From: Pseudomonas sp. GM78
GTDB lineage: Bacteria; Pseudomonadota; Gammaproteobacteria; Pseudomonadales; Pseudomonadaceae
NCBI RefSeq assembly: GCF_000282475.1
Contig: NZ_AKJF01000021.1
Coordinates: forward strand, 1 to 64,000
Direction of reading: 5' to 3'
DNA length: 64,000 bases
Positions 14,672-52,835 of the stretch are shown piece by piece (position 1 is the stretch's first letter; each line of letters begins with the position of its first letter). A model generated the notes under the pieces. The model did not search any database, was not told the DNA's origin, and was given only the letters and a program-made list of their open reading frames with translations. Both the position numbers and the translations under genes were made by a program.

Positions 14672-15652
14672 ATGTCATTCATGGAAACCCGGGGCGTTCA
14701 GCCTGTAGCGCAATACCCCACACCTCTCGATAAAACCACGTCCTGGCGCACCCGCGCGGCGCAGATCGATCCACTGCAGGCGCAGTGCTTCAGCGTGATC
14801 GCCCGTTGCGGCTGCTTCATGCAGGCAGCCCGCCGTCTCAACATCAAGGCAACCCGGCTGCGCAAGCAATTGGCGCAGCTGGAAAAGCAGTTGCAGTGTT
14901 CACTGTTCAGCCCTTCGGAGAACGGGCTGGTGCTCAGTCGTGACGGCCTGCAACTGCACAAGCAGCTGACCGCGTTGGCGCATGAACGCGACCTGCCGGT
15001 GATCGAGCAACCCATTGTGCGCCTGGCTGTCGCCGAGACGATCCTGCACGACATCCTCGGTCGTGATCTGGTGGCGTTGTTGCGACGCAATGCCAGTGCA
15101 CGCCTGGACATCATTACCCTCGACAGCGAATTGTCCCTGCAGGCGGTCAGTGCCGACGTCGTGGTTTGGCTGGCGGGTACCGACTCGCCGCTGCCGGGCC
15201 CGAGTTTTGCCGTCAGCGAGCCGCAATGCCTGGCGCAATTCGACTACGTTCCGCACATCGCCAAGCGCTATTCACGGGTCGCCTCGCGACCCGACAGCCT
15301 CGATGACCTGGCCGACTTCATGCTGGTGCAGTGGCAGCATGATCGGCAGATCGACAGCTTTCGGCCCTGGAACGACCTGGTCGACCAGCGCCCGGCCGGG
15401 ATCGTGCAGTCGCATTCCTATCCACTGATGCTGGAGATGATCCGTTGCAGCGCCTGCATCGGCCTGCTGCCCGGCTACATGAGCCACTTTGACCGTGGCT
15501 TGATCGGTTTGCCGGGGTTGTTCCAGCCGCCGATGCAGCGCCAGGTGTGGCTGGCGGTGAATGCCGAGTCAGAGGGCGAGGCGCAGGTGCAGATGATTGT
15601 CGAGTTGATCCAGAACACTTTCAGTGAGCGTCGGGACTGGTTCGAGAGCTGA
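14672..15652 (+). CDS. LysR-family transcriptional regulator
   Basis: A 326-residue LysR-type regulator. The winged helix occupies about residues 36-95 (IARCGCFMQAARRLNIKATRLRKQLAQLE, with the LysR alanine-rich turn and the RxxxQLAQLEKQL helix), preceded by an unusual 30-residue N-terminal extension. The effector domain follows from about residue 115. GGGAG lies 6 bases before the ATG. It does not face a divergent gene closely: the AhpD-like gene ends 73 bases upstream on the same strand. Its target is unclear, and could be the gene upstream or distant loci. Confidence 0.85.
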   Translation: MSFMETRGVQPVAQYPTPLDKTTSWRTRAAQIDPLQAQCFSVIARCGCFMQAARRLNIKATRLRKQLAQLEKQLQCSLFSPSENGLVLSRDGLQLHKQLTALAHERDLPVIEQPIVRLAVAETILHDILGRDLVALLRRNASARLDIITLDSELSLQAVSADVVVWLAGTDSPLPGPSFAVSEPQCLAQFDYVPHIAKRYSRVASRPDSLDDLADFMLVQWQHDRQIDSFRPWNDLVDQRPAGIVQSHSYPLMLEMIRCSACIGLLPGYMSHFDRGLIGLPGLFQPPMQRQVWLAVNAESEGEAQVQMIVELIQNTFSERRDWFES

Positions 15653-15665
15653 GCACAGCTCAAAA

Positions 15666-15759
15666 AATGTGGGAGCGAGCCTGCTCGCGATAGCGGTGGG
15701 TCCGCCAACATTAATAGCGACTGATACATCGCCATCGCGAGCAGGCTCGCTCCCACATT
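15666..15759. repeat. REP/BIME palindrome pair
   Basis: Inverted units aatgtgggagcgagcctgct and its complement ending ctcgctcccacatt enclose about 40 bases. It lies 14 bases after the LysR gene and before the GNAT gene. Confidence 0.92.
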
Positions 15760-15828
15760 GGTTCTCGCCATGTTTGAAGAATGCGTTGTAGAGTGGGCGG
15801 CCATGTCTGTATCAAGGATGAATCACCC

Positions 15829-16350
15829 ATGAGCGCTACCGACGCTGTCATCACCCTCGAACGCTTCGACGAATCCCACCTCGTCGGCGTTACCGCGCTC
15901 TACAACGACCCTGCGGTCACCCGTCAAGTGTTGCAAATGCCATATCAGTCCGTCGAAGCCTGGCGCAAACGCCTGGAAGCGGACAACGTACGCTCGGTCA
16001 AACTGGTCGCGTTGCATCAGGGCGTCGTGGTCGGCGAGCTTGGCCTTGAACAGTTTTCACGTATCCGACGCAGTCATGCCGGCAGTTTTGGCATGGGCGT
16101 GGCGCCAGCCTGGCAGGGCAAGGGCGTGGGTTCGCAACTGCTGGCAGCGGCGCTGGATATTGCCGACAACTGGATGAACCTGCGGCGGGTCGAACTGAGC
16201 GTGTATGCCGACAACGAAGCCGCCATCGGCCTGTACCGCAAGTTCGGCTTCGAGACCGAAGGGCTGTTTCGCGACTATGCGGTGCGTGATGGCGGCTACG
16301 TCGATACCTTGAGCATGGCGCGTTTGCGACGCATGCCCAATAGCGATTGA
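15829..16350 (+). CDS. GNAT-family N-acetyltransferase (YhhY-like)
   Basis: A 173-residue GNAT acetyltransferase that moves an acetyl group from acetyl-CoA to an amine. The acetyl-CoA pyrophosphate loop reads GVAPAWQGKGVGSQLL near residue 92, and the C-terminal strand is NEAAIGLYRKFGFETEG, both diagnostic. ATG 15829 (MSATDAVITL) was chosen over 15781; AAGGA stands 10 bases before it. The length and order of motifs resemble E. coli YhhY, an amino-acid N-acetyltransferase, but the substrate is not certain. It may be co-transcribed with the hypothetical at 16443, which starts 93 bases on. Confidence 0.88.
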   Translation: MSATDAVITLERFDESHLVGVTALYNDPAVTRQVLQMPYQSVEAWRKRLEADNVRSVKLVALHQGVVVGELGLEQFSRIRRSHAGSFGMGVAPAWQGKGVGSQLLAAALDIADNWMNLRRVELSVYADNEAAIGLYRKFGFETEGLFRDYAVRDGGYVDTLSMARLRRMPNSD

Positions 16351-16442
16351 TCCATACCGCTCGCGCTTTTAGTCGTACGCGGGCGGCGCGCATCTGCCAT
16401 GCTGAACGTCCGCAACACCGCTTCAATCAAGGGAACACCGCA

Positions 16443-16937
16443 ATGGACGACGTACGGCAACTGGGCGAGATGCTTCGTCATTACGCAGAAAGCGAAGCGC
16501 ACAAAAAGCAGCTGTTCGAGACGCAATCGGCCGAGTGGGCCAGGCGCATTGGTGAGCTATTTGACCAAATCCAGCAGTGGCTGGAGCCGGTTCTGGCGCC
16601 GAATCTGCTGGAGGTGAGCCGCGAAGCGTATGTCGCGTCCGGGCCGAGTGTTCCGGTGGAAACCTCCACCTTCAAGACTGAAAAGCTGAGCATCCTGATC
16701 GCCGGCAAACCGGTGGAGTTCGTGCCGGATGTGATGGGGGCCGGTGGGCAGATTTCCCTGGCGGTCATGGGCTTTACCGCGGCCCGCTATGGCAGTGTTT
16801 CGCTGGTGTGTATGCCGCCGTCCAATGGCTGGCAGTGGCGCAAGACCAACGGTCTTAAAGACCCGGATACCTTTGTCTTCGAGGCGGATTTTCTGGCGCA
16901 GCAGTTGCAGAGTTTGATTCCGCGCGAACGCGCTTGA
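16443..16937 (+). CDS. Hypothetical protein with N-terminal coiled coil
   Basis: A 164-residue protein beginning MDDVRQLGEM. AAGGGAA sits 7 bases before this ATG; the longer open frame from 16347 overlaps the GNAT gene end without a ribosome site. Residues 1-45 form a charged helix with coiled-coil character (SEAHKKQLFETQSAEWARRI), and the rest is a beta-rich domain with VSLVCMPPSNGWQWRKTNG in its middle. No signal peptide or membrane segment is visible. I do not recognise the family. It lies downstream of the acetyltransferase on the same strand. Confidence 0.7.
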   Translation: MDDVRQLGEMLRHYAESEAHKKQLFETQSAEWARRIGELFDQIQQWLEPVLAPNLLEVSREAYVASGPSVPVETSTFKTEKLSILIAGKPVEFVPDVMGAGGQISLAVMGFTAARYGSVSLVCMPPSNGWQWRKTNGLKDPDTFVFEADFLAQQLQSLIPRERA

Positions 16938-16946
16938 TCCGAGACC

Positions 16947-16972
16947 GCCATCGCTGGGAAGCCAGCGATGGC
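16947..16972. terminator. Perfect 11-bp hairpin between convergent genes
   Basis: GCCATCGCTGG pairs perfectly with CCAGCGATGGC around a GAAG loop, 9 bases after the plus-strand gene ends and 15 bases before the minus-strand gene's stop. No T-run follows on either side, so it may act as a rho-linked end or an mRNA-stabilising hairpin rather than a true intrinsic terminator. Confidence 0.45.
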
Positions 16973-16987
16973 ACTCTAAGCATCGCC

Positions 16988-17209
16988 TCAAATCTCGATA
17001 TTCCCCCAACCCTTTGCGGGCTCTTCTGGCGCGACAGCATGTATGCGCTTGCCAGTAGCGGCTTCGACCCGCCGGGCGACCTCAGGGTCATCGGCAAACG
17101 GCATCAGGCTGGCATCGTCCAGACTTTCGGCGGTCTGGTGGCGCAGGCAGTTTTCGATGGCGAACCACAGGAACACCACCCCCAGGCTATTCAACACGAA
17201 TTCAGTCAT
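16988..17209 (-). CDS. Small membrane protein, partner of orphan CcoN
   Basis: A 73-residue protein with one transmembrane segment right at the N-terminus ([20 protein letters not shown]) and a charged, soluble tail ending in GWGNIEI. Its ATG overlaps the ccoN stop (TGATG at 17207-17211), a strong sign of translational coupling. It is the size of a CcoQ/CcoS-like accessory subunit but does not match either by eye. In P. aeruginosa a small hypothetical gene (PA4134, by my recollection) follows ccoN4 in the same way, so this is probably its counterpart. A role in assembly or stability of the alternative oxidase is inferred. Confidence 0.78.
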   Translation of the reverse strand: MTEFVLNSLGVVFLWFAIENCLRHQTAESLDDASLMPFADDPEVARRVEAATGKRIHAVAPEEPAKGWGNIEI

Positions 17210-18636
17210 CAGGCTATCTGCGCCTCGCATTCCGCCAGCGCCACGTCGGACACCCGCACCGTCCGCCACACGTTGTAAGCCATCACCAGCATGCCAGTGA
17301 GAAACAGCACGCCACCGGCAAAGCGCACCACGAACCCCGGATGGCTGGCCTGCAAGGTTTCGACGAAGGAATAGGTCAGCGTGCCGTCATCGTTGATCGC
17401 ACGCCACATCAGGCCCTGGGTGATGCCGTTGACCCACATCGAGGCGATGTACAGCACGGTGCCGATGGTCGCCAACCAGAAGTGCAGGTTCATCAGGCCT
17501 ACGCTGTGCATTTGTGCGCGACCGAAGACCTTCGGCACCATGTGGTAAGTCGCGCCGAAGGTGATCATCGCCACCCAGCCGAGGGCGCCGGCGTGGACGT
17601 GGCCGATGGTCCAGTCGGTGTAGTGGGAGAGGGCGTTGACCGTCTTGATCGCCATCATCGGCCCTTCGAAGGTCGACATGCCGTAGAACGCCAGGGACAG
17701 CACGAGAAAGCGCAGGATCGGGTCGGTGCGCAACTTATGCCAGGCGCCCGAAAGCGTCATCATGCCGTTGATCATCCCGCCCCAGCTCGGCGCCAACAGG
17801 ATCAGCGACATGGCCATGCCCAGCGACTGCGCCCAGTCCGGCAAGGCGGTGTAGTGCAAGTGGTGGGGGCCGGCCCAGATGTAGAGGGTGATCAGCGCCC
17901 AGAAATGCACGATCGACAAACGATAGGAATACACCGGCCGGCCCGCTTGTTTGGGCACGAAGTAATACATCATCCCGAGGAAACCGGTGGTCAGGAAAAA
18001 GCCCACGGCGTTGTGCCCGTACCACCACTGCACCATAGCGTCGGTCGCCCCCGAATACACCGGATAGGACTTGAACCAGTCCACTGGAATCGCCAGGTGA
18101 TTGACCACGTGCAGCATCGCGATCACCACGATGAACGCACCGAAGAACCAGTTGCCGACATAGATGTGCCGGGTCTTGCGCTGCACCACGGTGGTGAAGA
18201 ACACGATGGCGTAGGCGACCCAGACCAGGGTCATCCACACCGCGCCGGAGAACTCGATTTCGGCGTATTCCTTGGTGGTGGTGTAGCCCAGCGGCAACGT
18301 GATGAGCATCACCACGATGACCGATTGCCAGCCCCAGAACGTGAAGGCGGCGAGTTTGTCCGAGAACAGTCGCACCTGGCAGGTTCGCTGCACCGCATAG
18401 TAGCTGGCGGCGAATTGCGCGCTGCCAGCGAAACCGAAAATCACCAGGCTGGTGTGCAACGGGCGCAAGCGCCCGAACGTGGTCCAGGGCAGGTCCAGGT
18501 TCAACTGCGGCCACACCAGCTGCGAGGCGATCCACACGCCCATCGCCATCCCCACGACGCCCCAGATCACGGTTGCCACGATGAATTGGCGCACGACCTT
18601 GTAGTTATAGGCCTGTCCGGTAGTTGTTGTGCTCAT
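17209..18636 (-). CDS. ccoN4: cbb3-type cytochrome c oxidase catalytic subunit, orphan (CcoN4-like)
   Basis: A 475-residue subunit I of a cbb3 oxidase with about 12 membrane helices. Haem and copper ligands are present: H61 in LRPLHTS, the CuB histidine in [11 protein letters not shown], the His pair in AGPHHLHY, and [12 protein letters not shown]. The helix VII PVYSYRL holds the crosslinked tyrosine of the family. ATG 18636 ([10 protein letters not shown]) follows GGAAG by 8 bases; the frame extends to 18693 without a site. No ccoO or ccoP lies nearby, so this is an orphan subunit that must pair with CcoO/CcoP made elsewhere, as shown for extra CcoN proteins in P. aeruginosa. I found no convincing ANR box in its upstream region. 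Confidence 0.93.
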
Positions 18637-18858
18637 GATCAATGCTTCCACGGTTGCAATGGCGGGCAACTGTAAAAACATTGGCAAATTCAAAACAGAC
18701 TCAGGGAAAAGTCATTTATGCGGATCAGATCTGCATCGAGTCAAGCTGTGTGCATTTAACCCTGATACGGTTTTTTCATGAGTAGCTGAATCTGTAATGA
18801 AAACTAGCACGCGTCCATAGTCACTACCTCGAAACGAGCCGCCGTTGATGCCGTCCAC

Positions 18859-18953
18859 CCTGTGGGAGCGAACCTGCTCGCGAAGAGTCCAGCACATTCA
18901 ACATCGATGTCGCCTGATACTCCGCCTTCGCGAGCAGGCTCGCTCCCACAAGG
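18859..18953. repeat. REP/BIME palindrome pair
   Basis: cctgtgggagcgaacctgct at the left and its complement ending ctcgctcccacaagg at the right, separated by about 40 bases. It lies in the 369-base divergent region between ccoN and the reductase gene, closer to the latter. Apart from it, that region shows only AT-rich, probably promoter, sequence. Confidence 0.9.
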
Positions 18954-19005
18954 ATCGCGCCAGGCATCAGCAACAGAGCCCGATCAAACCTGATGAGGTA
19001 GCCAG

Positions 19006-20679
19006 ATGTATCAGTACGACGACTATGACCGGGCACTGGTGTTCGAGCGGGTTGCGCAGTTTCGCGATCAGGTCGAACGCTTCATGGCGGGCGAACTGAG
19101 CGAGGAAGAGTTCCTGCCGTTGCGCCTGCAAAACGGCCTGTACCTGCAAAAACATGCCTACATGCTGCGCGTCGCCATTCCCTACGGCACCCTGAGCGCC
19201 CGGCAGATGCGCACCCTGGCGAGCATCGCCCGGGATTACGATCGCGGCTACGGCCACTTCACGACGCGGCAGAACATGCAGTTCAACTGGATCGAACTGG
19301 CCCAGGTGCCGGACATCCTCGAACGCCTGGCCCAGGTCAACATGCACGCCATCCAGACCTCCGGCAACTGCGTGCGCAACATCACCACCGAAGCCTTTGC
19401 CGGGGTGGCGGCCGACGAAATGATCGACCCGCGCCCGCTGGCGGAAATCCTGCGGCAATGGTCGACCATCAACCCGGAGTTCCTCTACCTGCCGCGCAAG
19501 TTCAAGATCGCCATCTGCTCGGCCGAACAGGACCGCGCGGCAATCATGATGCATGACATCGGCCTCTATCTTTACCCGGGCGACGACGGGCAGATGCTGC
19601 TGCGGGTGATCGTCGGCGGCGGTCTTGGGCGCACGCCGATCCTCGGCTTGCAGATTCGCCAGGACTTGCCGTGGCAGCACCTGTTGTCCTACGTCGAGGC
19701 GGTGTTGCGGGTGTACAACCGTCATGGCCGGCGGGACAACAAGTACAAGGCGCGGATCAAGATTCTGGTGAAAGCCCTGGGCATTGAAGCGTTCGCCAGG
19801 GAAGTCGAGGAGGAGTGGACGCACATCAAGGATGGCCCGGCGCAACTGACCCTGGACGAGTTCGAGCGCGTGGCCGCTGCCTTCGTTGCGCCGCAATATC
19901 GCGACCTGGCGGATACCAGTCTAGATTTCGGCACGCACCTGGCCGAGAACCCGGCGTTCGCCCGCTGGGTGCAGCGCAATGTGCAGGCACACAAGGTAAT
20001 GGGTTATGCCAGCGTGGTGCTGTCGACCAAACCGGGCAGCAGCGCGCCGCCGGGGGATGTCACAGCCATGCAAATGGAGGCGGTGGCGCAGTGGTCAGAG
20101 CATTTCGGCTTTGGCGAGATCCGCATCGCCCACGAGCAAAACATCGTGCTGCCGGACGTGTCAAAAGCCGATTTGTTCATGCTCTGGCGCCTGGCTTGCG
20201 AGCATAACCTCGGCAGCGCCAACGCCGGTTTGCTCACGGACATCATCGCCTGCCCCGGTGGTGATTTCTGTGCGCTGGCCAACGCCAAGTCGATCCCCAT
20301 CGCCCAAGCCATTCAAGCGCGCTTCGAAGACCTCGATTACCTGCATGATCTGGGCGACATCAGCCTCAACATCTCCGGCTGCATGAACGCCTGCGGTCAC
20401 CACCACATCGGCAACATCGGCATCCTGGGGGTCGATAAGAACGGCAGTGAGTGGTACCAGATCACCCTCGGTGGCGCCCAGGGCAAGCACAGCGCGTTGG
20501 GCAAGGTTATCGGCCCGTCGTTCAGCGCGGCGCAAGTGCCTGGGGTGATCGAGCACATCGTCGACACGTTCGTGCGTTACCGAGAAAACGAGGAATTGTT
20601 CGTCGACACCTTGCAGCGCATCGGCCTGGAACCGTTCAAAGAGGCGGTTTATCCGAAAGTGCTGGAGGTGTCGACATGA
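19006..20679 (+). CDS. Nitrite/sulfite reductase haemoprotein, CysI-like
   Basis: A 557-residue sirohaem/4Fe-4S reductase. The two duplicated ferredoxin-like halves are visible, and the cluster-binding cysteines are complete: ACPGGDFCALAN (about residues 414-425) and NISGCMNACGHHH (about 455-467). TSGNCVRNITTE is the sirohaem-side motif. GAGG lies 7 bases before the ATG. It reduces sulfite to sulfide or nitrite to ammonia using six electrons. The next gene, a DUF934 protein, overlaps its stop; this pairing is shared by the assimilatory CysI operon. Because it neighbours orphan ccoN, it is more likely the PA4130-type paralogue than the main CysI, so the physiological substrate is uncertain. 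Confidence 0.92.
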   Translation: MYQYDDYDRALVFERVAQFRDQVERFMAGELSEEEFLPLRLQNGLYLQKHAYMLRVAIPYGTLSARQMRTLASIARDYDRGYGHFTTRQNMQFNWIELAQVPDILERLAQVNMHAIQTSGNCVRNITTEAFAGVAADEMIDPRPLAEILRQWSTINPEFLYLPRKFKIAICSAEQDRAAIMMHDIGLYLYPGDDGQMLLRVIVGGGLGRTPILGLQIRQDLPWQHLLSYVEAVLRVYNRHGRRDNKYKARIKILVKALGIEAFAREVEEEWTHIKDGPAQLTLDEFERVAAAFVAPQYRDLADTSLDFGTHLAENPAFARWVQRNVQAHKVMGYASVVLSTKPGSSAPPGDVTAMQMEAVAQWSEHFGFGEIRIAHEQNIVLPDVSKADLFMLWRLACEHNLGSANAGLLTDIIACPGGDFCALANAKSIPIAQAIQARFEDLDYLHDLGDISLNISGCMNACGHHHIGNIGILGVDKNGSEWYQITLGGAQGKHSALGKVIGPSFSAAQVPGVIEHIVDTFVRYRENEELFVDTLQRIGLEPFKEAVYPKVLEVST

Positions 20680-21155
20680 ACAATCTGTTGCGTCTGGAGG
20701 AGGGCGGGGCGCGGATTGACCTGGATGATCCGTGGACGCTTATCCGCGATCTGGAGCCGCCATTGCCAAGGGGCAAGGTGATCTTGCCATTGGCGCGCTG
20801 GCTGGAAAGTCCACGCGAACACGCTGTGTGGCTGGGGCCGGACGATGAGGTGGAGGGGCTTGAACAGTGGTTTGGCCAGTTGCCGTTGATCGCCCTGGAT
20901 TTTCCGAGTTTTCGCGATGGCCGGGCCTATAGCCAGGCCTATTTGCTGCGCACCCGATTGGGCTGGCGTGGGGAATTGCGTGCGGTGGGTGATGTGTTGC
21001 GCGACCAGCTCAGTCATATGCGCCACTGTGGATTCGACAGCTTTGCCGTGCGTGAAGACAAATCGGCCGAGGACGCGCTCAAGGGGCTGGCCGGGATGAG
21101 CGTGTCATATGGGCGTTCGGTGATTGAGCCGCGGCCGTTGTTTCGGCGGCGTTGA
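20676..21155 (+). CDS. DUF934 family protein, reductase partner
   Basis: A 159-residue DUF934 protein whose ATG overlaps the reductase stop (ATGA, 20676-20679), with GGAGG 7 bases before it. Recognisable family pieces are LPLIALDFPSFRDGRAYSQAYLLR and DVLRDQLSHMRHCGFDSF. DUF934 genes follow CysI-type reductases in many proteobacteria and are thought to help with electron supply or oxidoreductase assembly. A longer frame starting at 20451 runs inside the reductase gene and was rejected. The last eight codons and the stop (PRPLFRRR*) are repeated, with only synonymous changes, at 25102-25130; see the repeat entries. Confidence 0.9.
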   Translation: MNNLLRLEEGGARIDLDDPWTLIRDLEPPLPRGKVILPLARWLESPREHAVWLGPDDEVEGLEQWFGQLPLIALDFPSFRDGRAYSQAYLLRTRLGWRGELRAVGDVLRDQLSHMRHCGFDSFAVREDKSAEDALKGLAGMSVSYGRSVIEPRPLFRRR

Positions 21156-21306
21156 CGTAAATTATGCATTGGCAGGGCTGACGCTTTCGCGAAGGGGCCA
21201 TTGGATCAGCCCCCCGATCATTTCAACGCGGGTTCCCCCATGTTCATTTTCTTCCAGCCCTGCAACAGCACCGGGGCCTTCGGTACTTGGCCGCTGTCCA
21301 GGTAGT
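21128..21306. repeat. Left copy of the gene-junction duplication flanking the PLC/FN3 insert
   Basis: A 179-base direct repeat of 25102-25316. It holds the last codons of the DUF934 gene, a short intergenic segment, and the last 29 codons (inverted) of the octahaem cytochrome gene. In the part after the REP site (21191-21306) I count about 6 differences and one indel against the right copy. The left copy lacks the REP hairpin that the right copy has at 25158-25206. Confidence 0.93.
21218..21306 (-). pseudogene. 3' remnant of the octahaem cytochrome gene
   Basis: In the minus strand this segment reads in frame YLDSGQVPKAPVLLQGW then KKMNMGEPALK and a stop, nearly identical to the C-terminus of the protein encoded at 25228-27588 (three amino-acid differences and two silent changes over 29 codons). 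It has no upstream coding sequence, so it is a cut-off copy left outside the insert. Confidence 0.9.
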
Positions 21307-21335
21307 CATGGTGACTGGCTGAGGGAGCGCCGCTG

Positions 21336-24300
21336 TTACTTTGTAGTGAACTCAGAGATCAGCGGCGATGAATGACCGTTTTCATTGCGAGCTGTAATGG
21401 TTACATCGTAACGGGTGCGTGGAAGCAAAACCGGCTTCGTAAAGGTCAGGGCTGTAAAATAGTGCGAGGTGCTTCCCAGTGGTCCGGTGATCGCTATGTC
21501 ATATTCGAGTACATCTCCTGAAGATTTATCCCATTCCAGGGTCGGTATGGGTATTAATGATGTTTGTGTATAGCGGAAGTTGCTCGGTGCGCTCGGTAAT
21601 TCGCCTTCAATAATTACCGCTATCGACGCCGTTTCGGAGATGTTGCCAAATAGATCCATGGCGCAGATTTTAATGTTGTATTCGCCGGGCAGTAGGAACA
21701 CTGTGTATTGGGTGAGTGGCGTACTGTCGAAATATACATCCTCGAGATAGATAACATATTCAAGCGCGCGGGTGTCATCGGTCGCCGCATCCCAGGTAAA
21801 TGTGCTGGAGTTCGAAGTCGACTCCGTCGTTTTTAAGTTGGTTGGCATGCTGGGCGGCGTTATGTACTTTGGTTCATAGTGAAGAGTGGTGGGCTCAGAC
21901 ATCGCACCTACAGCATCAAAAGAAAATAATTCTACGATATAGGTAAAGCCTGGAATCAAGTCTCTTAAAACTGCAGAATTGGTAATCAACGACGTTTCGT
22001 AATGGTAGCCATCAACCATAATCATCACCCCTGCCGGATAGAGGGCGTCGGGAGCATGAGACCAATCCAGTCTGGCGGTAGTAGAAGTCAGAGCCTTGAT
22101 GGAGGCACTGGGTGAGGGATACACAGGTGCTGTCCCCGTGGTTCTGAACACAGTTCGTTCACTGGCCAAGGATAGATTTCCGTCCTTGTCCTCTGCACGG
22201 ACATAGACAGAGTGGACTTGTCCAGAAGCTATCTTATCAAGAGTGAGTTCGTTGGTTGGGGTGTATCGGACACTTATACCATTGCGCACCAATTTGTAAC
22301 GGGTAACACCTGTGTTGTCGCTTGCCGAAGTCCAACTCACATATGCCGAGTTGTTGGTAATATGGCTGATTAAAGGTTTGCCCGGTTGAGTTGGAGGTGT
22401 CACATCATCCAATACAGTATTGAAGGTAGTTGTTTCAGAGGTGGCTCCGTCCAGTATGGTTTTTACCATAAAGGTGAAGTGGTGGGGAGGTTCACCAGGT
22501 GAAAACTGCTCAAGATTAAAGCTGTGGCCTAACGCGCCTGCTGTGAACGGCTGACCATTAATCGTTCCCTCATGAGTTGGAGACCTTGCAAAAATCGGGT
22601 CCCAGGAAAGTCTGCAGGTTCCGGAGTTATGTTTTAGTTTCAGATTTGTCGGTGGTCTTAACAAGGTTTTAAATGCTTTCGGGCTGGGTTGTGACGTGCC
22701 TATCCTATTGACTGCGCGGACCTCGACAAGATAATGGGTACTGGTTCGTAAGTAATTAAGCTCGGCAGAAGGATGATTGGTTTGTCTAACCAGAACACCG
22801 TTGAGGTAAATTTTGTAGCGTATGGGCCCAACGCCAGACGATGGCGCCCAAATCAATGACGCTGAACTGTGACCCAAGGCAATGAGTTCGGGAATGCCAG
22901 GCGTCGTCGGTGGTGCGTAGCTTAAATTTATCGAAATGGGTGCAGAAACGTTATCGGTATTTTCATCAATTGCCCAGACTTCGTAGAGATAGTCAGTGGT
23001 AGAGTCGGGATTGATATTGGTAGCCGTGTAGGAACAAGGTGATGAGGGAACCAGAACGGGGGCTTCTTCGTTGCGAGAGATCGCATACCCGGTTAATCTT
23101 GTATCGGTCGAGGGGCACCACGTCAAAGTAAAGGATCCAGGGGCGATAGATGAGCCCTCTAAGTTGTCTGGCGCAGTAAGCTTGTTAAAGCATACGGTAT
23201 ACTCTGTAGTTTCTGAGCGCTCCTCCTTATCTGTTCCATAATTCATTACATACTGGATGCCGAACGTGAGGTCACGATCAGTCGGGGTTTTGTGGCTGAA
23301 GGAAAATCCGCTGGTGAATTCGCCAACTGGTTCGGTTTTAATTATAGTTCCATCTAAAGTGATTATAATGGTGAATTTCGCGAGAGCGTTGTTTGTAATG
23401 AGCCAGCCAATGTACATGACCTGACTCTCTGTAAAGGTCTTAACGCTTATCTCATTCCTTTGAGGTACCATCGGCCTTTGCGGAATGGACATGTTTGCCC
23501 ACTCCGAGCTATTATTGCTCCAGTCTCTTGCGCATACTTTAATTGAAGCGTATTCCGCAGGATTTAGATTCGTAAGTGTGTATTCGACTCCGTCCACAAA
23601 ATCGAGAAATGCTCCATTTTTTTGTATTTCGTAGCCTTTAATTCCAGCGCTATCCTGTGATTCGTCCCAGAATATAGATATTGTATAAAAACTTATATTT
23701 CTTATGAGAGGTCCCCCGGGTTTTGTGGGTGGGATGTTATCTTTTAAGTGGCTGAATACCTTGCTTGAAGGTGCGGAAATATTGCCCATTATATCAAAGG
23801 CGCGAATTGTATAGTTGTAGGGTCTGGCTAGGACGTTCGTGGAATATTCGTTTTCGTTAGTGGAAAAAAATAGATGCTCATCCTGATAGATTTGATGTCC
23901 CACTACGCCAGTGTTGTCGGTGCCGCGACTCCATTTGAAACTAGCAGCCTCTACGGGTTTCCCATTATCAATGAGTTGAGTTATTGTTAGATCGTTAGGT
24001 GCGACAGGAAGTGTCGTGTCCTGGCCGCGGGCAATATTAAGTGCGATGCAGCGATCAACAATTCCCGTTCTTTCAATAAAATCTACGTTGATGATGTTCC
24101 CGGTCTGCTGGCCCGGTTTGAAAACTGTATTCCCCCATAACCTGTGAGATGAATTCAGCACCGCTGGCCCTGAACTGTTATAAGCCGTCGCGGACAGTGA
24201 CCAGAGGTTAGGCAGAGGCTCGGCCATCATTGTATTGCAAAATTCGACAATGTCACTCTCTGAAACGGAATCTTTATTTAGCCACGCATGCCTCAATGTG

Positions 24301-24929
24301 CCCCAGAATCCATTTCCATGCCCCCATGCAATGATAATGTTCTGCCTGGAGAATTTAGCACGAATTTCGCCAATGGTCAGATTCGCCGCGGAGGGCGGAA
24401 TCAGCATTTCAAGTATGGGGTTAAAATATTTCAGGCATCGAGTTACACTGTCGGATGCATATTTTCCTCTGTCGTACTGATGAATATCTAATATGATGAT
24501 TTCACCAGGGTTTTTTGTTGAAAATTCACGAACTTCGTCAATGCAGCTCTGAAGTGTTCGTCCCGTTACTATGGCGTGATTAAATACAAATTCTTCTTTA
24601 AAGATCCAGGTTGGAGAGTGATTTCCTACAAGTTTTTTATAGCTGGCATCATAGAGTCGAAGGTCTAAAACTCGTGCCCCCGCTTCCAATTGAAAACCAA
24701 ATGAATTTGTCTGGCACGCGGCCCACAATTCCTCCAGACCCCAAAGGTGCGATGTATCCATGCCTGCGTTGTGAGCAGACGGCAAAGCCAATTGATAAAG
24801 TTTCATATTGGCGATAGCGGTAGCGTTATCAGTCATCCAGCGACTGTAATTGACTACAGATCGTTGTGCGACAGTAGGCTGCGTTGAATTTGACTCAACG
24901 TTCTGGGGCGTCGTTTGAGGGGTGCTCAT
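21336..24929 (-). CDS. PI-PLC X-domain protein with about ten fibronectin type III domains
   Basis: A 1197-residue protein. Residues about 27-275 form a phosphatidylinositol-specific phospholipase C X-like domain: catalytic histidines H53 (LPSAHNAG) and H118 (FVFNHAIV), and LDLRLY with D89 and R91, fit bacterial PI-PLC. The rest is about ten FN3-like repeats of 85-95 residues, several with the signature WSRGTDNTGVVGHQIYQ or WTSASDNTGVTRYKLVRNG. No signal peptide or membrane segment is seen, so export, if any, needs another route. ATG 24929 has GGAA 6 bases upstream; the longer frame starts on TTG. The gene is far richer in A+T than its neighbours (23 G+C in the 60 bases from 24421), and it lies inside duplicated flanks, pointing to horizontal transfer. 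Substrate and target are unknown; a surface-binding lipase or toxin is possible. Confidence 0.88.
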   Translation of the reverse strand: MSTPQTTPQNVESNSTQPTVAQRSVVNYSRWMTDNATAIANMKLYQLALPSAHNAGMDTSHLWGLEELWAACQTNSFGFQLEAGARVLDLRLYDASYKKLVGNHSPTWIFKEEFVFNHAIVTGRTLQSCIDEVREFSTKNPGEIIILDIHQYDRGKYASDSVTRCLKYFNPILEMLIPPSAANLTIGEIRAKFSRQNIIIAWGHGNGFWGTLRHAWLNKDSVSESDIVEFCNTMMAEPLPNLWSLSATAYNSSGPAVLNSSHRLWGNTVFKPGQQTGNIINVDFIERTGIVDRCIALNIARGQDTTLPVAPNDLTITQLIDNGKPVEAASFKWSRGTDNTGVVGHQIYQDEHLFFSTNENEYSTNVLARPYNYTIRAFDIMGNISAPSSKVFSHLKDNIPPTKPGGPLIRNISFYTISIFWDESQDSAGIKGYEIQKNGAFLDFVDGVEYTLTNLNPAEYASIKVCARDWSNNSSEWANMSIPQRPMVPQRNEISVKTFTESQVMYIGWLITNNALAKFTIIITLDGTIIKTEPVGEFTSGFSFSHKTPTDRDLTFGIQYVMNYGTDKEERSETTEYTVCFNKLTAPDNLEGSSIAPGSFTLTWCPSTDTRLTGYAISRNEEAPVLVPSSPCSYTATNINPDSTTDYLYEVWAIDENTDNVSAPISINLSYAPPTTPGIPELIALGHSSASLIWAPSSGVGPIRYKIYLNGVLVRQTNHPSAELNYLRTSTHYLVEVRAVNRIGTSQPSPKAFKTLLRPPTNLKLKHNSGTCRLSWDPIFARSPTHEGTINGQPFTAGALGHSFNLEQFSPGEPPHHFTFMVKTILDGATSETTTFNTVLDDVTPPTQPGKPLISHITNNSAYVSWTSASDNTGVTRYKLVRNGISVRYTPTNELTLDKIASGQVHSVYVRAEDKDGNLSLASERTVFRTTGTAPVYPSPSASIKALTSTTARLDWSHAPDALYPAGVMIMVDGYHYETSLITNSAVLRDLIPGFTYIVELFSFDAVGAMSEPTTLHYEPKYITPPSMPTNLKTTESTSNSSTFTWDAATDDTRALEYVIYLEDVYFDSTPLTQYTVFLLPGEYNIKICAMDLFGNISETASIAVIIEGELPSAPSNFRYTQTSLIPIPTLEWDKSSGDVLEYDIAITGPLGSTSHYFTALTFTKPVLLPRTRYDVTITARNENGHSSPLISEFTTK

Positions 24930-25101
24930 GGCAATTTCCAATAAGGGAGAGATTGGTATTTTTTACTACCTTTAAGAGTTGCTCGCCACTATCAGAACTG
25001 CTAGTTGTTGTTTTTGAAGTTGTATCTATGCTTTAGGGGTTTGACTTTTGAAGTTCACCTTTGGTTGTAAGTTTCTGCAGTTCCTGGTTAAACCTGAAGG
25101 C
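24930..25101. other. AT-rich upstream region of the PLC/FN3 gene, right end of the insert
   Basis: 172 bases with low G+C and no open frame of note. They must hold the promoter of the minus-strand gene. No inverted terminal repeat, integrase or tRNA end is visible, so the insert boundary is defined only by the start of the duplicated sequence at 25102. Confidence 0.5.
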
Positions 25102-25316
25102 GCCGCGGCCGTTATTTCGGCGACGTTAACCTGAGTTTTTAATTGGCGGTACTGACGCCTTCGCGGGCAAGCCCGCTCCTGTAGGAGCGAGGCTTGCCCG
25201 CGAAGGGGCCATTGGATCACCCCCCGATCATTTCAACGCCGGATCCCCCATGTTCATTTTCTTCCAGCCCTGCAACAGCACCTGGGCCTTCGGTTCCTGG
25301 CCGCTGTCCAGGTAGT
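25102..25316. repeat. Right copy of the gene-junction duplication
   Basis: The 215-base partner of 21128-21306. It starts with the last codons of a DUF934 gene (same residues, but codons TTA, CGA and stop TAA instead of TTG, CGG and TGA), continues with intergenic sequence containing a REP hairpin, and ends inside the functional octahaem cytochrome gene. The length difference from the left copy is the REP hairpin. Confidence 0.93.
25158..25206. repeat. Compact REP hairpin
   Basis: ccttcgcgggcaagcccgct and its complement form a tight palindrome of about 49 bases directly beyond the stop of the cytochrome gene. The left junction copy has only ctttcgcgaagg at this place, so the hairpin was gained by one copy or lost by the other. 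Confidence 0.9.
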
Positions 25317-27588
25317 ACTGGATAAGCGACAGCCGCGCATTGCGGTTGGCTGGCTGCATTTTCAACAGCCTTTCCAGCTCCTCGCACGCGGCATCGACCT
25401 TGCCGCTGTCATGCAGGGCCACGGCCAGCACATAGCCGTATTGCGGACTCTGCGGTTCCAGTTGCGCGGCTTTGCGCAGGAAGGGCATGGCCTGATCGGA
25501 TTTGCCTGCACGTACCAGTGACAAGCCCTGGGTGTGTTGCAGCAGTGCGGCGTCGGGGTGTTCCTTCAGGTTTTGCGCCAGCAGCGTTTGGGCTTCCTGA
25601 CCGCGACCGTTGGCTTCCAGCCATTGCACAAGGGTCACCAGCGCCGGGTAGAAGTCCGGGTCGCGCTGGAGTGAGGTGCGCAACAAACCTTCGACTTCGC
25701 CGCTGCGGCCGCTGGCCTGGTAGAGCATGGCCAGGTTGAGGTTGGCTTCGGCGCGTTCGGCCAGGCTCTTCTGCACGGTCTCGTATTCGGCGATGGCCGC
25801 ATTCCAGTTGTCCTGGGCCGTGCCCAGGCCATTGCGTGCCACGCTGAGTAGATCCCGGGCCGCGGCAATGCGTACCGCCTTGACCGGGTCGCTCAGCAAC
25901 GGCGTCAACAGCGGCGCACGCTCCGGCGGTGGCAGGAAGGCACTGATCGCCCGCACGGCGCTTTCACGCACTTGCGGCGCCGCATTGCCCAAGTCCCGGG
26001 TGGCCAGTTTCAGCGCCTGCTCGCTGGGGTACAGCGGCAACTCGGCAAGCAGGGTCGCCCGTTGAATCGCTGGCAGGTTGCTGCGCTGCAATTGCTCGTA
26101 CAGGGTTTGCGCGGCGCCAGGCTGGCCGTTGCGGATCAGCCACAGGCTTTCGTCGTAACGCGGGGCCTGGGCGGCGGTGGAGGTGTTCCAGAGCTTGAAC
26201 TGCTCGGTAACCTTGTCGCCGGCCTTGCCCCGGTGACAGGTCAGGCAGGCGTCCGGAGTGCCGAGCTTTTTCGCCCGCTCGGGGTTGGGGATGCTGAAAC
26301 TGTGGTCATGCCTAAAGTCATTGCCCATATAGAACTTGCCGGGCATATGGCAATCGATGCACTGCGACCCCGGCTGGCCCATGGTGTGGCGGGTGTGTTC
26401 GATGGAATCGTAGTTTTTCGCTTGCAGGCCCTTGCCGTCGACGCCTTCGACGGAGGTCTTGCCAGCGGTGTTGTGGCATTGCAGGCACACGCCATTGCCC
26501 GGCGCCTTCAATTCGCTGCTGTGGGGGTTGTGGCAGTTGCTGCAGCGCACGCCCTTGTCGAACATTTTGCTCTGGGCGAACGAACCGTGTTCGAACACTT
26601 CATCCTTGATCTTGCCATCCAGCGCATACAGCTCGCGGGTCAGGGCACTGGGCAGGTAGTCGTCCATCAGGCGCTTGCCAACGGTGAAGCCGTCGCCCAG
26701 TGGCGCACGACGCGAGTGACAGCGGGCACAGGTTTCGATCTCGACGGTGGCGTTTTTGTCCTTGAGGTCGACGGCAAAACCCGAGTGGACCAGATCGCCT
26801 TTTTTCGTCGTCCATTGCAGGTGATTGGAGGCCGGGCCGTGGCAGGCCTGGCAGCCGACGCCGAGGCTGTTCCACTGGCTGTCGAAGGTGTTTTTCGCGG
26901 TATCGAAATTGCGCTTGTAGCCGGTGGTGTGGCACTCGACGCACATGAAGTTGGCGTTCTGGCTCGGCTTGCTCCAGTGCAGCGGGTCCTTGAAGGTCAC
27001 ACCCTGGCCTGGATAGAGATGAAACCAGCGCTGCTTCTCGGTATCCCAGGCAATGCCGAGGGCTTGCAAGCGACCTTCGCCGACCTCTATCAGGTATTGC
27101 TGCAAGGGTGCGATGCCAAAGGTGTAGGCGACCTTGAAGTCGGCGTTCTTGCCGTCGATGCCAGGGGTGTTGACCCAGAAGCCGTCGTCCTTGCGCGAGA
27201 ACCGGGTCGTTTCGTTTTCGCCCTTGAAAGTGACGTTGTTGAAGTCGCCGAGCATGGTCTGCGCGTTGGCCTCCTGCATCGCCAATTGGTGATGGGAACC
27301 TTGCCAGTCCATGACCTGTGCGCTGTGGCAGCCCTGGCATTGCTGCTCGTCGACCATGGTCGCCGGCGCCATGGCGACGGGTTGCGGTTGCGCTTTTGCG
27401 GGTTGCGCGACAGGTGTATTGACCGGCGCATAGCTCACCGGAGCCGGTTGGCTGCTGAGCAGGAACCAGCCGATGCCCGCGACCGCCAGCAATAAGGCGC
27501 CGATGGTGACGGGGAACAGGTAGCGATGAATCAGGGTCGGTTGCGAATCAGGGTTTGGCTCTACTGCTTTATTTTTATGTTTCGGCAT
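25228..27588 (-). CDS. Membrane-anchored octahaem cytochrome c with HEAT/TPR repeats
   Basis: A 786-residue protein with an N-terminal membrane anchor (about residues 25-45, LFPVTIGALLLAVAGIGWFLL) and a periplasmic body. Eight CxxCH haem motifs begin at residues 84, 216, 246, 287, 349, 368, 410 and 448 (CQGCH, CVECH, CQACH, CARCH, CSNCH, CLQCH, CIDCH, CLTCH). After residue 480 come HEAT-like helices (ATRDLGNAAPQVRESAVRAI) and then TPR repeats to the end. Related multihaem proteins shuttle electrons in the envelope. GGAAG lies 5 bases before the ATG. The gene precedes no terminator; a REP hairpin follows. The membrane-fused spermidine-synthase-like gene lies upstream in the same direction. The redox partner is unknown. 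Confidence 0.9.
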   Translation of the reverse strand: MPKHKNKAVEPNPDSQPTLIHRYLFPVTIGALLLAVAGIGWFLLSSQPAPVSYAPVNTPVAQPAKAQPQPVAMAPATMVDEQQCQGCHSAQVMDWQGSHHQLAMQEANAQTMLGDFNNVTFKGENETTRFSRKDDGFWVNTPGIDGKNADFKVAYTFGIAPLQQYLIEVGEGRLQALGIAWDTEKQRWFHLYPGQGVTFKDPLHWSKPSQNANFMCVECHTTGYKRNFDTAKNTFDSQWNSLGVGCQACHGPASNHLQWTTKKGDLVHSGFAVDLKDKNATVEIETCARCHSRRAPLGDGFTVGKRLMDDYLPSALTRELYALDGKIKDEVFEHGSFAQSKMFDKGVRCSNCHNPHSSELKAPGNGVCLQCHNTAGKTSVEGVDGKGLQAKNYDSIEHTRHTMGQPGSQCIDCHMPGKFYMGNDFRHDHSFSIPNPERAKKLGTPDACLTCHRGKAGDKVTEQFKLWNTSTAAQAPRYDESLWLIRNGQPGAAQTLYEQLQRSNLPAIQRATLLAELPLYPSEQALKLATRDLGNAAPQVRESAVRAISAFLPPPERAPLLTPLLSDPVKAVRIAAARDLLSVARNGLGTAQDNWNAAIAEYETVQKSLAERAEANLNLAMLYQASGRSGEVEGLLRTSLQRDPDFYPALVTLVQWLEANGRGQEAQTLLAQNLKEHPDAALLQHTQGLSLVRAGKSDQAMPFLRKAAQLEPQSPQYGYVLAVALHDSGKVDAACEELERLLKMQPANRNARLSLIQYYLDSGQEPKAQVLLQGWKKMNMGDPALK

Positions 27589-27702
27589 TACGACTTCCGT
27601 AGTCCAGGTGCGTTTGCCGTCAGGCGCGCGTTCATGCTCGATGCAGCTTTGCCGGATGGCCGGTTTCTGTCAAATGATGGTTGTGGTGAAGCTGATGGCC
27701 CA

Positions 27703-27792
27703 ATCGCTGGCAAGCCAGCTCCCACAGGGAGTTGTGTCGTACCTGAATGTTGTGAACGACGCCAAAACTGTGGGAGCTGGCTTGCCAGCGAT
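27703..27792. repeat. REP/BIME palindrome pair
   Basis: Inverted units with an atcgctggcaagccagctcc core and the complement ending ccagcgat, about 40 bases apart. It separates the MFS/spermidine-synthase gene from the cytochrome gene; the 225-base gap holds nothing else I can identify. Confidence 0.88.
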
Positions 27793-27813
27793 AGCGGCCT
27801 GACAGGCGCCGCA

Positions 27814-30327
27814 TCACTCCCCGACAAACCACCGGAAATACGGATTCCCCCCATCCCCGCGCATCACCTCGCGCACATCCCTGGCCCAGGCATCCCGGTC
27901 ACCGTCATAGGCGTGCAGGCTCGCCCGGTAGAACTGCATCAGGCGCTGTTGGTGGGTGTTCATTCGCTCGCTAAACCCCTGATTGGCGTTCACCAGCACC
28001 GGCGGTTGGTGCAAGTCCAGCAGGGCCGGCAGCACGCGGGTGATCTCCTTGGCTCGCACCCACGGCGCGTATTCGATTCGCGGCTGGTCATCCGTCACTG
28101 CGGGTGCATCAGCGGCAAAGCGCTCCAAGCCGGCGCGGTCGGTGACCCAGGTCGCGAGCAGGGCGGCGGCCGAGCCGATACCGACGTCTTGCAGAGTGCT
28201 GCGCACAGTGTCCTGCTGGAAACGTTGAGTGATTTTGGCGGCATCCAGCTCGATCGGCTCCAGCGACCCCACCAGCAGCATTTCGTGGAACTCGCTGGTC
28301 CATAGGGTGGCGTAGGGGAAGACATCAAGGAAACTGCGCACCAGCGAGCGCGAGTCGTCGATGTTTTGCGTTGGCAGCGGCAGCCATTGTGCGACCAGGC
28401 CCTGTTTCTGCAAGCGGCTGGCGGCCAACTGGTAGAAGTCCCGGGAATACAGGTTGACCACGCCGGCAGCGGAGGGCGGTGGCGGTTCGAGGGTGATCAA
28501 GTCGTAGCGTTGCGGGTTGCGCAGCAGTTCCTGGCGACCGTCGCGCAGGCGCACGTCGACACCCGGGTCGGCGGCGGCATTGAAGTTGCCCTTGAACAGC
28601 GGCGCGGCCTTGACCACCGACGGCAGCAGTTCAGCGACAACGCGCTGCTCCAGGCCCGGATAGCGCGTCAGGGCGCCGGCGGTGATGCCCGTGCCGAAAC
28701 CGATCACCAGTGCCGAGCGCGGTTCGCCGTTGTGGATCAACAATGGCAGCAGCGCCTGGATGCGCATGTAGCGCAGCGAAGGCATGGCGTCGCCGGTGTT
28801 TGAGACACCCTGGATGTACAAGCGCTGGAACGCCCTCTGGCCCTTGCCCTGGGTGACCACGGCGACGGTACCGCCGCGACCCTCCTCATAGAACGCCAAG
28901 GTGCCGTTGCGCGCGCCGGGCAGCAGGCTGGCCAGCTTGTCCACCGGGGTCAGCAGCGCCAGCGCCACCGATACCAGGCCGACGGCGATCACACCCTGTC
29001 GCCGTCCCTTCTTCACGCCATGGCCCTTGCGCACGGCACAGTAGCCAATCCCCGCGGCGATGATCGCCAGCAGTCCCAGGGTTCGAACCAGGCCCAGCAG
29101 CGGGATCAGCACAAAGCCGCAGAGCATCACCCCGACGATACCGCCCAGGGTATTGAACGCCACCACCTCGCCGACATTGCGCCCTACATGGTCGCGCCCG
29201 ACGCTCAAGCGCAGCGCCACGGGAAACGCCGCGCCTAGCAGCAGCGTCGGCACGAACACGATGCTCAGCGCCGCCACGGCGAAGCGTGTGCTCATGCCGA
29301 GCAATTCACTGGCGCCCAATGACAGCACCCAGGCTTCGGCCGCGCTTTGCGCGAGCACCAGCCAACGCCCCAGCAGTGCAATTTCCAGCAATGCGATCAA
29401 GCCGGCACCGGCGATCAGCAGGCCGAACACACCCCAGGGATCGCGCAGGCGATCCACCCGACGGGCGAGCAGGGCGCTGCCGAAGAACAGCCCGGTGAGG
29501 TACGTCGCCAACACCACGGCAAAGGCATAGGTGCGGGTACTCATGAACTGCACGATGGATTGCGACCAGACCACTTCGTAGCCCAGGGCCACGCCGCCGG
29601 CAATCGAATACAGCCACAGGGCCAGGCGATCCGGCGCTTTGTCGGCGTGGTGGTGGACCGGGGTTTCAACGGCCAGGACACGTTGACGCTGGAACCACAG
29701 GGCACCGGCGGCGGCCAGCAGATTGAGCATCGCGGCGGCCAGGGCACTGCCGCGCACCCCGAAGGTGGCAATCAATACGAACGCCGCGAGCAGAGTGCCG
29801 GCAATGGCGCCCGCAGTGTTGGCCGCGTAGAGGTGACCACCGGCCTTGCCCAATTGCTGCGGATCGGCGGCCAGGGAACGCACCAGCACCGGCAGCGTGC
29901 CGCCCATCAGCAACGCCGGAAGGCCCACCAGCGCAAACGGCAACACCCAGGCCAACAGGCCCACCTGCTGCTCCAGCCAGGCAAACGGACTGGCCGCCAG
30001 GCTCATGGCGAAGGTCGCGCCGACCCCCAGCACCGCCACCAGCACTTCCAGCCCGGCATACAACAGGACCGGTTGCTGCAAGCGGTCCGCCCAGCGGCCG
30101 AACAACAGGCCGCCCAGGGCCAGACCGGCGAAAAAAGCGCTGATCCCGGTGGTGATGGCGTACACCTCGACGCCCACCACCAGCGACAGCTGCTTGATCC
30201 ACAGCACCTGATACACCAGCGCGGCGGAGCCAGAGACGAACAGCAACAGGGCGGGGATCAACAGCGCCGGGGAGGCGACGTGGGGGGCAGGTATGGCCGA
30301 CGACTTGCTGGCGACACGTGAGGACAT
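27814..30327 (-). CDS. Membrane-fused spermidine-synthase-like protein
   Basis: An 837-residue fusion. The first roughly 460 residues hold about a dozen membrane helices of MFS or spermidine-synthase-associated type (LLFVSGSAALVYQVLWIKQL is the typical first helix). The C-terminal part, about 500-740, is a spermidine-synthase-like Rossmann domain with SALVIGFGTGITAG as the S-adenosyl-binding loop and YDLITLEPPPPSA in place of the classical catalytic aspartate region. AAGG lies 9 bases before the ATG. Such fusions accompany multihaem cytochromes in several proteobacteria. Real aminopropyltransferase activity is doubtful because the key acidic residues are changed; a methyltransferase-like or sensing role is possible. 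Confidence 0.88.
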   Translation of the reverse strand: MSSRVASKSSAIPAPHVASPALLIPALLLFVSGSAALVYQVLWIKQLSLVVGVEVYAITTGISAFFAGLALGGLLFGRWADRLQQPVLLYAGLEVLVAVLGVGATFAMSLAASPFAWLEQQVGLLAWVLPFALVGLPALLMGGTLPVLVRSLAADPQQLGKAGGHLYAANTAGAIAGTLLAAFVLIATFGVRGSALAAAMLNLLAAAGALWFQRQRVLAVETPVHHHADKAPDRLALWLYSIAGGVALGYEVVWSQSIVQFMSTRTYAFAVVLATYLTGLFFGSALLARRVDRLRDPWGVFGLLIAGAGLIALLEIALLGRWLVLAQSAAEAWVLSLGASELLGMSTRFAVAALSIVFVPTLLLGAAFPVALRLSVGRDHVGRNVGEVVAFNTLGGIVGVMLCGFVLIPLLGLVRTLGLLAIIAAGIGYCAVRKGHGVKKGRRQGVIAVGLVSVALALLTPVDKLASLLPGARNGTLAFYEEGRGGTVAVVTQGKGQRAFQRLYIQGVSNTGDAMPSLRYMRIQALLPLLIHNGEPRSALVIGFGTGITAGALTRYPGLEQRVVAELLPSVVKAAPLFKGNFNAAADPGVDVRLRDGRQELLRNPQRYDLITLEPPPPSAAGVVNLYSRDFYQLAASRLQKQGLVAQWLPLPTQNIDDSRSLVRSFLDVFPYATLWTSEFHEMLLVGSLEPIELDAAKITQRFQQDTVRSTLQDVGIGSAAALLATWVTDRAGLERFAADAPAVTDDQPRIEYAPWVRAKEITRVLPALLDLHQPPVLVNANQGFSERMNTHQQRLMQFYRASLHAYDGDRDAWARDVREVMRGDGGNPYFRWFVGE

Positions 30328-30376
30328 TGCGGATTGCCTTGTTCCAGTTCAAAAGCATCTGCGACTGCGCCGGCCT

Positions 30377-30453
30377 CATCGCGAGCAGGCTCGCTCCCAC
30401 AGTAGATCTTCGGTGCAACCAAAATCCCTGTGGGAGCGAGCCTGCTCGCGATG
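30377..30453. repeat. REP/BIME palindrome pair
   Basis: catcgcgagcaggctcgctc and its complement ending cctgctcgcgatg, about 28 bases apart. It sits between the start of the fused synthase gene and the terminator of the sulfatase operon. Confidence 0.92.
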
Positions 30454-30475
30454 GGGACGACGCGGTCCCAAGTCT

Positions 30476-30509
30476 AAAATAGAGCCGCTCGCCGATGAAG
30501 GCGAGCGGC
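30476..30509 (-). terminator. Rho-independent terminator of the sulfatase operon
   Basis: On the minus strand a perfect ten-base stem (gccgctcgcc / ggcgagcggc) with a six-base loop is followed by TCTATTTT, 13 bases past the sulfatase stop. It ends the long operon that starts near 42913. Confidence 0.85.
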
Positions 30510-30521
30510 GGTCAAGCGGTC

Positions 30522-49600: not shown

Positions 49601-49731
49601 TGGTCGGCGGCCTGCTGTTGAGCCAGGTTTTGACCTTGTTCACCACGCCGGTGATCTACCTGTACTTCGACCGTCTCGGTCGACGCTGGGGTCGCAAGCC
49701 TGAACCAGCGGACGCGGTAGAGCAGCCATGA
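46627..49731 (+). CDS. muxB: RND efflux pump subunit, MuxB/MdtB-like
   Basis: A 1034-residue resistance-nodulation-division transporter with 12 membrane helices and two large periplasmic loops. The proton-relay aspartates are in [18 protein letters not shown] of TM4, and the family start [15 protein letters not shown] and [14 protein letters not shown]-type docking loops are visible. With MuxC it forms a heteromeric pump energised by the proton gradient. Start and stop overlap muxA and muxC by four bases each. Substrates in the characterised systems include novobiocin, bile-like compounds and some antibiotics; this copy is inferred to be similar. Confidence 0.94.
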
Positions 49732-52700: not shown

Positions 52701-52835
52701 GGCGGGCTGATCTTCAGCCAGGTGCTGACCCTTTACACCACCCCGGTGGTTTACCTCTATCTCGACAAACTGCGCCATCGCTTCAACCATTGGCGTGGGG
52801 TGCGTACCGACGTTGCTCTGGAAACTCCGCTATGA
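49728..52835 (+). CDS. muxC: RND efflux pump subunit, MuxC/MdtC-like
   Basis: A 1035-residue RND transporter, paralogue of MuxB (both start NLS-x-x-FI-x-RPVAT). Proton-relay aspartates in [19 protein letters not shown] are intact, and the length and helix pattern are typical. It carries the fused second helical bundle with [20 protein letters not shown]. MuxB and MuxC probably assemble together, as MdtB and MdtC do. The gene overlaps muxB at the start and opmB at the end. No frameshift is visible. Confidence 0.94.

Follow-up and report, generated by a model that had tools for sequence, protein, structure and literature searches.

We analyzed the window, i.e., the whole 64,000-nt stretch of Pseudomonas sp. 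GM78 that covers positions 1 to 64,000 of NZ_AKJF01000021.1 on the forward strand, and all window coordinates given here refer to it. The region of interest contains an intact DUF934 gene and an intact octahaem cytochrome gene, in which eight CXXCH motifs can be read. The proteins encoded by these two genes are, respectively, 96% and 97% identical to those of G264, the only searched genome labelled as the same species. The two genes are convergent, i.e., the junction between them consists of two 3′ ends plus the bases in between. An earlier note on this DNA had claimed that this junction is present twice, with an AT-rich segment of about 3.8 kb that carries a PLC/FN3 gene lying between the copies, and our analysis located each of these features where they had been placed (Table 1). 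The copies align as direct repeats in two blocks, 21188-21306 with 25199-25316 (95% identity over 119 columns, E 8e-50) and 21128-21191 with 25102-25165 (80% over 64 columns, E 3e-11), and a 37-bp block of the REP-type hairpin is missing from the left copy. A target segment duplicated directly on either side of cargo, with both outer genes intact, is a feature of single-crossover products.

Table 1. Features of the duplicated DUF934-cytochrome junction and of the segment it encloses (window coordinates)
Feature	Position	Strand	Evidence or remark
DUF934 gene, intact; its 3′ end opens the left junction copy	20676..21155	+	Pfam DUF934, E 3.9e-38
Left junction copy: DUF934 tail, intergenic bases minus most of the REP, cytochrome 3′ end	21128..21306		direct repeat of 25102-25316
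Cytochrome 3′ end, truncated and decayed (E>V, Q>P, D>E)	21218..21306	-	5/89 private changes, 3 non-synonymous
Inserted AT-rich segment, 3,795 bp	21307..25101		GC and alignment; not in G264 or G274
PI-PLC-X-like and fibronectin-III protein, 1,192 aa from ATG; alternative TTG start at 24941	21336..24914	-
Right junction copy: DUF934 tail, intergenic bases with REP, cytochrome 3′ end	25102..25316		direct repeat of 21128-21306
DUF934 3′ fragment, stop TAA (left copy TGA)	25102..25129	+	3/28 bases differ
REP-type hairpin, mostly deleted from the left copy	25153..25211		inverted repeat; 37-bp gap in the left copy
Octahaem cytochrome/TPR gene, intact	25228..27588	-	ORF and Pfam

The GC content of the segment is 42-50%, compared with 53-68% in the remainder of 15000-32000 (500-base windows, boundary windows aside), and its ORFs of at least 80 aa are one large minus-strand ORF, one of 81 aa that runs antisense to the large one, and one of 83 aa that spans the left boundary. 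The earlier note had argued that transposition left no trace here, and in line with this no transposase or integrase was seen in the segment by ORF list, and a repeat search found no terminal inverted repeats at its ends; Rfam matched nothing in 21000-25400. Site-specific integration or transposition of a small element, in which the repeats would be att sites or a duplicated target, would explain why direct repeats bound the segment, and REPs have been reported as targets of insertion sequences (PMC1525189). Set against this are the missing recombinase gene and defined ends, and four sites elsewhere that carry long relatives of the inserted gene with no direct flanking repeats contradict it. 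It would also be unusual for a target duplication to comprise about 200 diverged bases, and we consider such an element very unlikely. Elsewhere in the window (46627-52835), two adjoining ORFs of 1,034 and 1,035 aa contain DNA blocks that are 71-75% identical at 3.1-kb spacing, a pattern which we take to be typical of paired RND efflux pumps.

The inserted gene and its family

The inserted protein consists of an N-terminal PI-PLC-X-like domain followed by fibronectin-III repeats. Pfam recognized fn3 (E 1.1e-27) and PI-PLC-X (PF00388, E 6.5e-4, under the curated cutoff), and the PLC part matched a solved PI-PLC at E 1.5e-8, which places it in this family by sequence match. We take the catalytic histidines of the B. 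cereus PI-PLC to be H32 and H82. The first of the two is aligned with the solved PI-PLC, and the histidine aligned at the second position is a different one from that in the motif FNHA, which, judged by eye against the relatives, is probably the second catalytic residue. From its sequence, the protein is predicted to act, probably, as a phosphodiesterase on phosphatidylinositol or a similar headgroup, the FN3 repeats serving as spacers. NCBIfam and PHROGs gave only partial matches, which we read as the FN3 part, and among the titles listed by a literature search on PI-PLC with FN3 in Pseudomonas, none was on the inserted gene.

With two candidates scored in each genome, this protein has matches in 113 of the 298 genomes searched in the genus, most of which involve only the PLC domain of about 300 aa, and the nearest matches in other genomes are 42-51% identical, some of them covering only part of the protein. 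Matches that run from the PLC domain into FN3 occur, among the matches listed, in five genomes, i.e., the window's own genome, G208, G172, G167, and G107. The four long relatives outside the window have a GC content of 46-51%, so that low GC characterizes the family and is no evidence of a distant source. The same observation counts against an assembly artefact, a reading that a draft genome of 235 contigs might invite; in addition, the two junction copies are not identical and the outer genes are both complete, and we regard an artefact as scarcely credible. All four long relatives sit between genes other than DUF934 and the cytochrome, and none has direct flanking repeats within 2 kb at E 0.05, the one in G208 showing a single 34-bp inverted flanking match. 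No mobile-element family is therefore indicated, and similar neighbor genes in G167 and G107 suggest vertical inheritance there. Among FN3-only relatives, one (L091) has direct and inverted flanking matches of 26-30 bp and another (L092) a 14-bp match. The two matches scored in G264 are an FN3-only paralogue elsewhere and a weak match to the PLC domain. The window's genome also contains this FN3-only paralogue (L097:8163-9887), 49% identical to part of the inserted gene, which is probably an old resident because its neighborhood looks alike in G264, G129, and G128.

A phage or plasmid origin was considered and dropped, since matches to the inserted protein came to 18 among 72,556 plasmid records and 4 among 50,697 records of phages, all at less than 60% identity and none over 80% of its length. 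A search of viral contigs and genome contigs with six octapeptides from the protein, which is a blunt test, gave no confirmed relative.

Empty and occupied junctions in relatives

Using the two flanking proteins (DUF934 and cytochrome), we searched the 298 genomes of the genus and fetched the corresponding junctions. This analysis demonstrated that the same-species genome G264 has a single junction with no insert, with 82 bp between the stop codons, and that P. umsongensis DSM 16611 (G274) likewise has a single, insert-free junction of 146 bp, which is one of the states that the earlier note had proposed to look for in P. fluorescens-group strains. The distance in Pseudomonas sp. TH41 (G129) is 83 bp. 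Of the 39 junctions fetched, 16 are shorter than 300 bp and free of genes, and 23 contain 0.84-2.26 kb of ordinary GC.

A set of 80 named loci, the best of 227 cytochrome-protein matches, contained no PLC/FN3 match within 7 kb of the cytochrome end, some of these loci ending at contig ends. DUF934 is adjacent in 49 of the 80, and 18 of these 49 have no gene between the two (about 49-231 bp) while 31 contain other genes. Of these 31, 26 contain a 322-aa protein with no Pfam match, four contain a PEGA-like lipoprotein alone (PEGA below cutoff), and one, in Pseudomonas sp. GV085 (L153:9371-12881), contains NUDIX, methyltransferase, P450, and dUTPase_2-type genes in a set of 3.7 kb with 55% GC, around which no duplicated junction pieces were detected. 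The segments with the 322-aa gene have normal GC and this gene may be inherited vertically, which leaves foreign-looking cargo only in GV085 and in the window. Different cargo at the same place, another state that the earlier note had proposed to look for, is seen in the P450 gene set, many other junctions containing a gene of ordinary GC, and the accompanying claim of an insertion hotspot stands insofar as 31 of 49 loci contain other genes and one of these sets looks foreign, and is weakened by the common gene being of ordinary GC and perhaps vertical.

Short tandem duplications are present at the junction in five of the 49 adjacent loci (L157, L162, L171, L176, and L183), and in the first three of these they reach into the end of a flanking gene. 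In Pseudomonas sp. RIT-PI-r (L162:9299-9873), for example, a tandem duplication with a 288-bp period and 91% identity comprises the cytochrome end and intergenic bases. As a control, we counted such duplications away from the junction in these loci and obtained six clusters in 713 kb; this control is mostly coding, and the enrichment is therefore only suggestive. These duplications are in favor of an in-place origin of the arrangement, in which repair or replication template switching at the REP-bearing junction doubled about 200 bp and captured a foreign fragment, both copies being native and changing neutrally later, although with such a control the enrichment is no clean test of it. REPs, often located between convergent genes, have been described as hot spots for transposition and recombination (PMC1525189). 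A broader proposal, which we hold to be doubtful, is that in the P. fluorescens complex incoming DNA lands recurrently, with no integrase, at the DUF934-cytochrome junction, whose REPs would provoke breaks or short duplications and repeatedly capture single foreign genes or gene sets; if this were true, the duplicated gene ends would be left as a datable record of such captures.

Divergence and age of the two junction copies

We compared the left copy, the right copy, G264, and P. umsongensis in a four-way alignment and scored as private any base changed in one copy alone (segment limits differ by two bases between the pairwise and four-way alignments). Left and right copies differ at 3/28 bases in the DUF934 tail, 10/36 in the intergenic bases before the REP, 0/25 after it, and 5/89 in the cytochrome end. 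In the same order, private changes number 0/28, 0/34, 0/27, and 5/89 in the left copy and 3/28, 5/34, 0/27, and 0/89 in the right copy, i.e., all 13 private substitutions (five left, eight right) are located on the insert-facing side of their copy. Under uniform neutral decay of unconstrained sites this has a probability of (151/239)^13 = 0.003 with a breakpoint chosen afterwards, or (178/239)^13 = 0.02 with the breakpoint, equally post hoc, placed after the post-REP bases. The 13 are among 18-19 differences between the copies, the other five to six lying where G264 and P. umsongensis disagree, so that their direction cannot be polarized. This reciprocal placement favors recombination with DNA carrying its own junction, since the 13/13 pattern is what a single crossover close to the REP would leave if it joined a resident with an imported junction. 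In-place duplication would lead us to expect equal change before the REP in the two copies, yet private changes there are 0 versus 5 of 34 (about 0.06 two-sided). The pattern fits a single crossover better than in-place duplication with neutral decay, with the provisos that the sequences are short and the breakpoint post hoc. We rejected a simpler comparison of the two halves (13/64 versus 5/114, Fisher p 0.0013) as proof of one-sided import, because the window and G264 show the same skew, with 7/34 differences before the REP versus 2/89 in the cytochrome end.

The two truncated gene ends were examined for the selection that the earlier note had proposed. In the right DUF934 tail, two of the three changed bases are synonymous and the third alters the stop codon from TGA to TAA, just as had been noted, and three such silent changes within nine codons have a chance probability of about 0.31^3 = 0.03. 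This mildly suits an allele that may have been functional before its arrival, and the proposed origin from a strain under selection keeps that much support. The changed states are each found, one at a time, at the DUF934 ends of other species, but no full donor allele turned up among the matches listed. Three amino-acid changes are present in the left cytochrome end (E>V, Q>P, and D>E), at residues that are the same in 38, 39, and 38 of the 39 fetched relatives, and on this evidence the fragment is decayed and not evolving as coding sequence; as read from its codons, it is no selected allele. Both cytochrome ends of the window share a serine codon that neither G264 nor P. umsongensis has, in keeping with a native origin of the left end. 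A host-type yet decayed left end is in favor of in-place duplication, as is the rate of private change (5/89 and 8/62), similar to the fourfold-site divergence from G264 of 9-15%. Taking both sides together, we regard in-place duplication as possible but rather unlikely.

At fourfold sites, the window diverges from G264 by 9% (cytochrome gene) and 15% (DUF934), and from P. umsongensis by 17% and 36%, respectively. The insert-facing private changes are of this order, which argues against a very recent event; it may date from about the time of the split from G264, or else an arrangement that was already old may have been brought in. The second option would be that the whole arrangement formed in another strain and arrived ready-made by homologous recombination in the flanking genes, leaving time for the decay. 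The left copy in the bases before the REP (21156-21191) differs at 2/34 from P. umsongensis versus 7/34 from the same-species G264, a hint that alleles were exchanged around the junction. At about 1.9-2.5 kb before the DUF934 stop, 150-base windows are also nearer P. umsongensis than G264 (e.g., 12 versus 30 differences), so that the region is a mosaic and alleles have been exchanged nearby. The windows adjoining the junction, however, are nearer G264 than P. umsongensis (8 versus 15 and 3 versus 6 differences in the last two DUF934 windows, and 4 versus 9 in the first cytochrome window), and the arrangement was found in no other genome searched. We consider a ready-made import improbable.

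Candidate origin of the insertion and known systems

The explanation that we prefer, at roughly even odds (about 0.5), is import by a single crossover of DNA bearing its own diverged junction. The incoming DNA would have carried the gene together with about 28 bp of a DUF934 end, intergenic bases with a REP, and about 89 bp of a cytochrome end, and would have been circular or concatenated. The resident junction would pair with the incoming one, and one crossover close to the REP would integrate this molecule and give, in order, an intact DUF934 gene, a hybrid junction, the inserted gene, the reciprocal hybrid, and an intact cytochrome gene, in which arrangement the insert-facing halves would be the imported ones. 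Both functional genes would survive, with the truncated ends facing the insert; afterwards, the truncated cytochrome end would decay and the left copy would lose most of its REP through deletion.

The recombination with imported DNA proposed in the earlier note thus agrees with the absence of the insert from relatives and with the reciprocal private changes, and it is the donor allele that did not turn up. Our first donor query was swamped by REP matches and was rerun with the REP removed (60 bases) against the same 398 genomes, two candidates being scored in each. Among the matches listed, no genome has the whole right-copy allele, and those at E of at most 0.001, bar the window's own two copies, end inside the DUF934 tail. 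The best outside match listed (G376), whose junction we examined alongside those of G344 and G105, has only the DUF934 tail in common, sharing one changed codon but with TGA and unrelated intergenic bases. A gapped-score comparison of 88 locus records (49 named and 39 unnamed, in overlapping sets) was too loose, with several unrelated loci scoring above the left copy, and in the window's own genome 40 of 275 candidates were scored, giving just the left copy and REP matches. Two further observations count against import: the right DUF934/pre-REP half is equally distant from the left copy (13/62), G264 (13/62), and P. umsongensis (14/62), and a circle of about 4 kb with such content corresponds to no known kind of molecule.

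The arrangement can be compared with several described systems. Integrants in E. coli, read as single crossovers with a circle carrying part of the locus, are reported with duplications of 109-950 bp in 14 sequenced clones (PMC3240628). Such Campbell-type integration has in common with the window that cargo lies between direct copies of a short target of a size within 109-950 bp, with the outer genes intact, whereas the window case is natural, old, and decayed, with diverged copies and no vector genes. Homology-facilitated illegitimate recombination (HFIR), for which there are reports from S. pneumoniae, A. baylyi, and P. stutzeri (PMC3240628, PMC5361080), has foreign DNA anchored through homology at one end. 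Its products are described as generally carrying a deletion about the size of the insertion (PMC3240628), whereas in the window the target is duplicated and, compared with the empty sites, no loss is seen except that of the REP block in one copy. We rejected a strict HFIR product, as the window shows no deletion of recipient DNA at an illegitimate end. Merodiploids reported after transformation of S. pneumoniae are also direct duplications from imported fragments, but of about 100-900 kb versus 200 bp in the window (PMC3784515). Small variable segments of bacterial genomes are, as described in PMC2884548, similarly strain-specific and in many cases intergenic, with direct flanking repeats in 10-18%, although most of the repeats there are shorter than 30 bp.

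The locus is a well-preserved, unusually readable natural example of a known integration scar, and neither a new mechanism nor a new system. When a single gene is gained in the absence of a mobile element, clean joins usually make the gain difficult to recognize. Here diverged target copies keep the geometry, and perhaps the breakpoint, of one event, to which the relatives add an empty site, different cargo, and duplications that lack cargo, all at this junction. This makes the locus a concrete test case for natural gene gain by single crossover.
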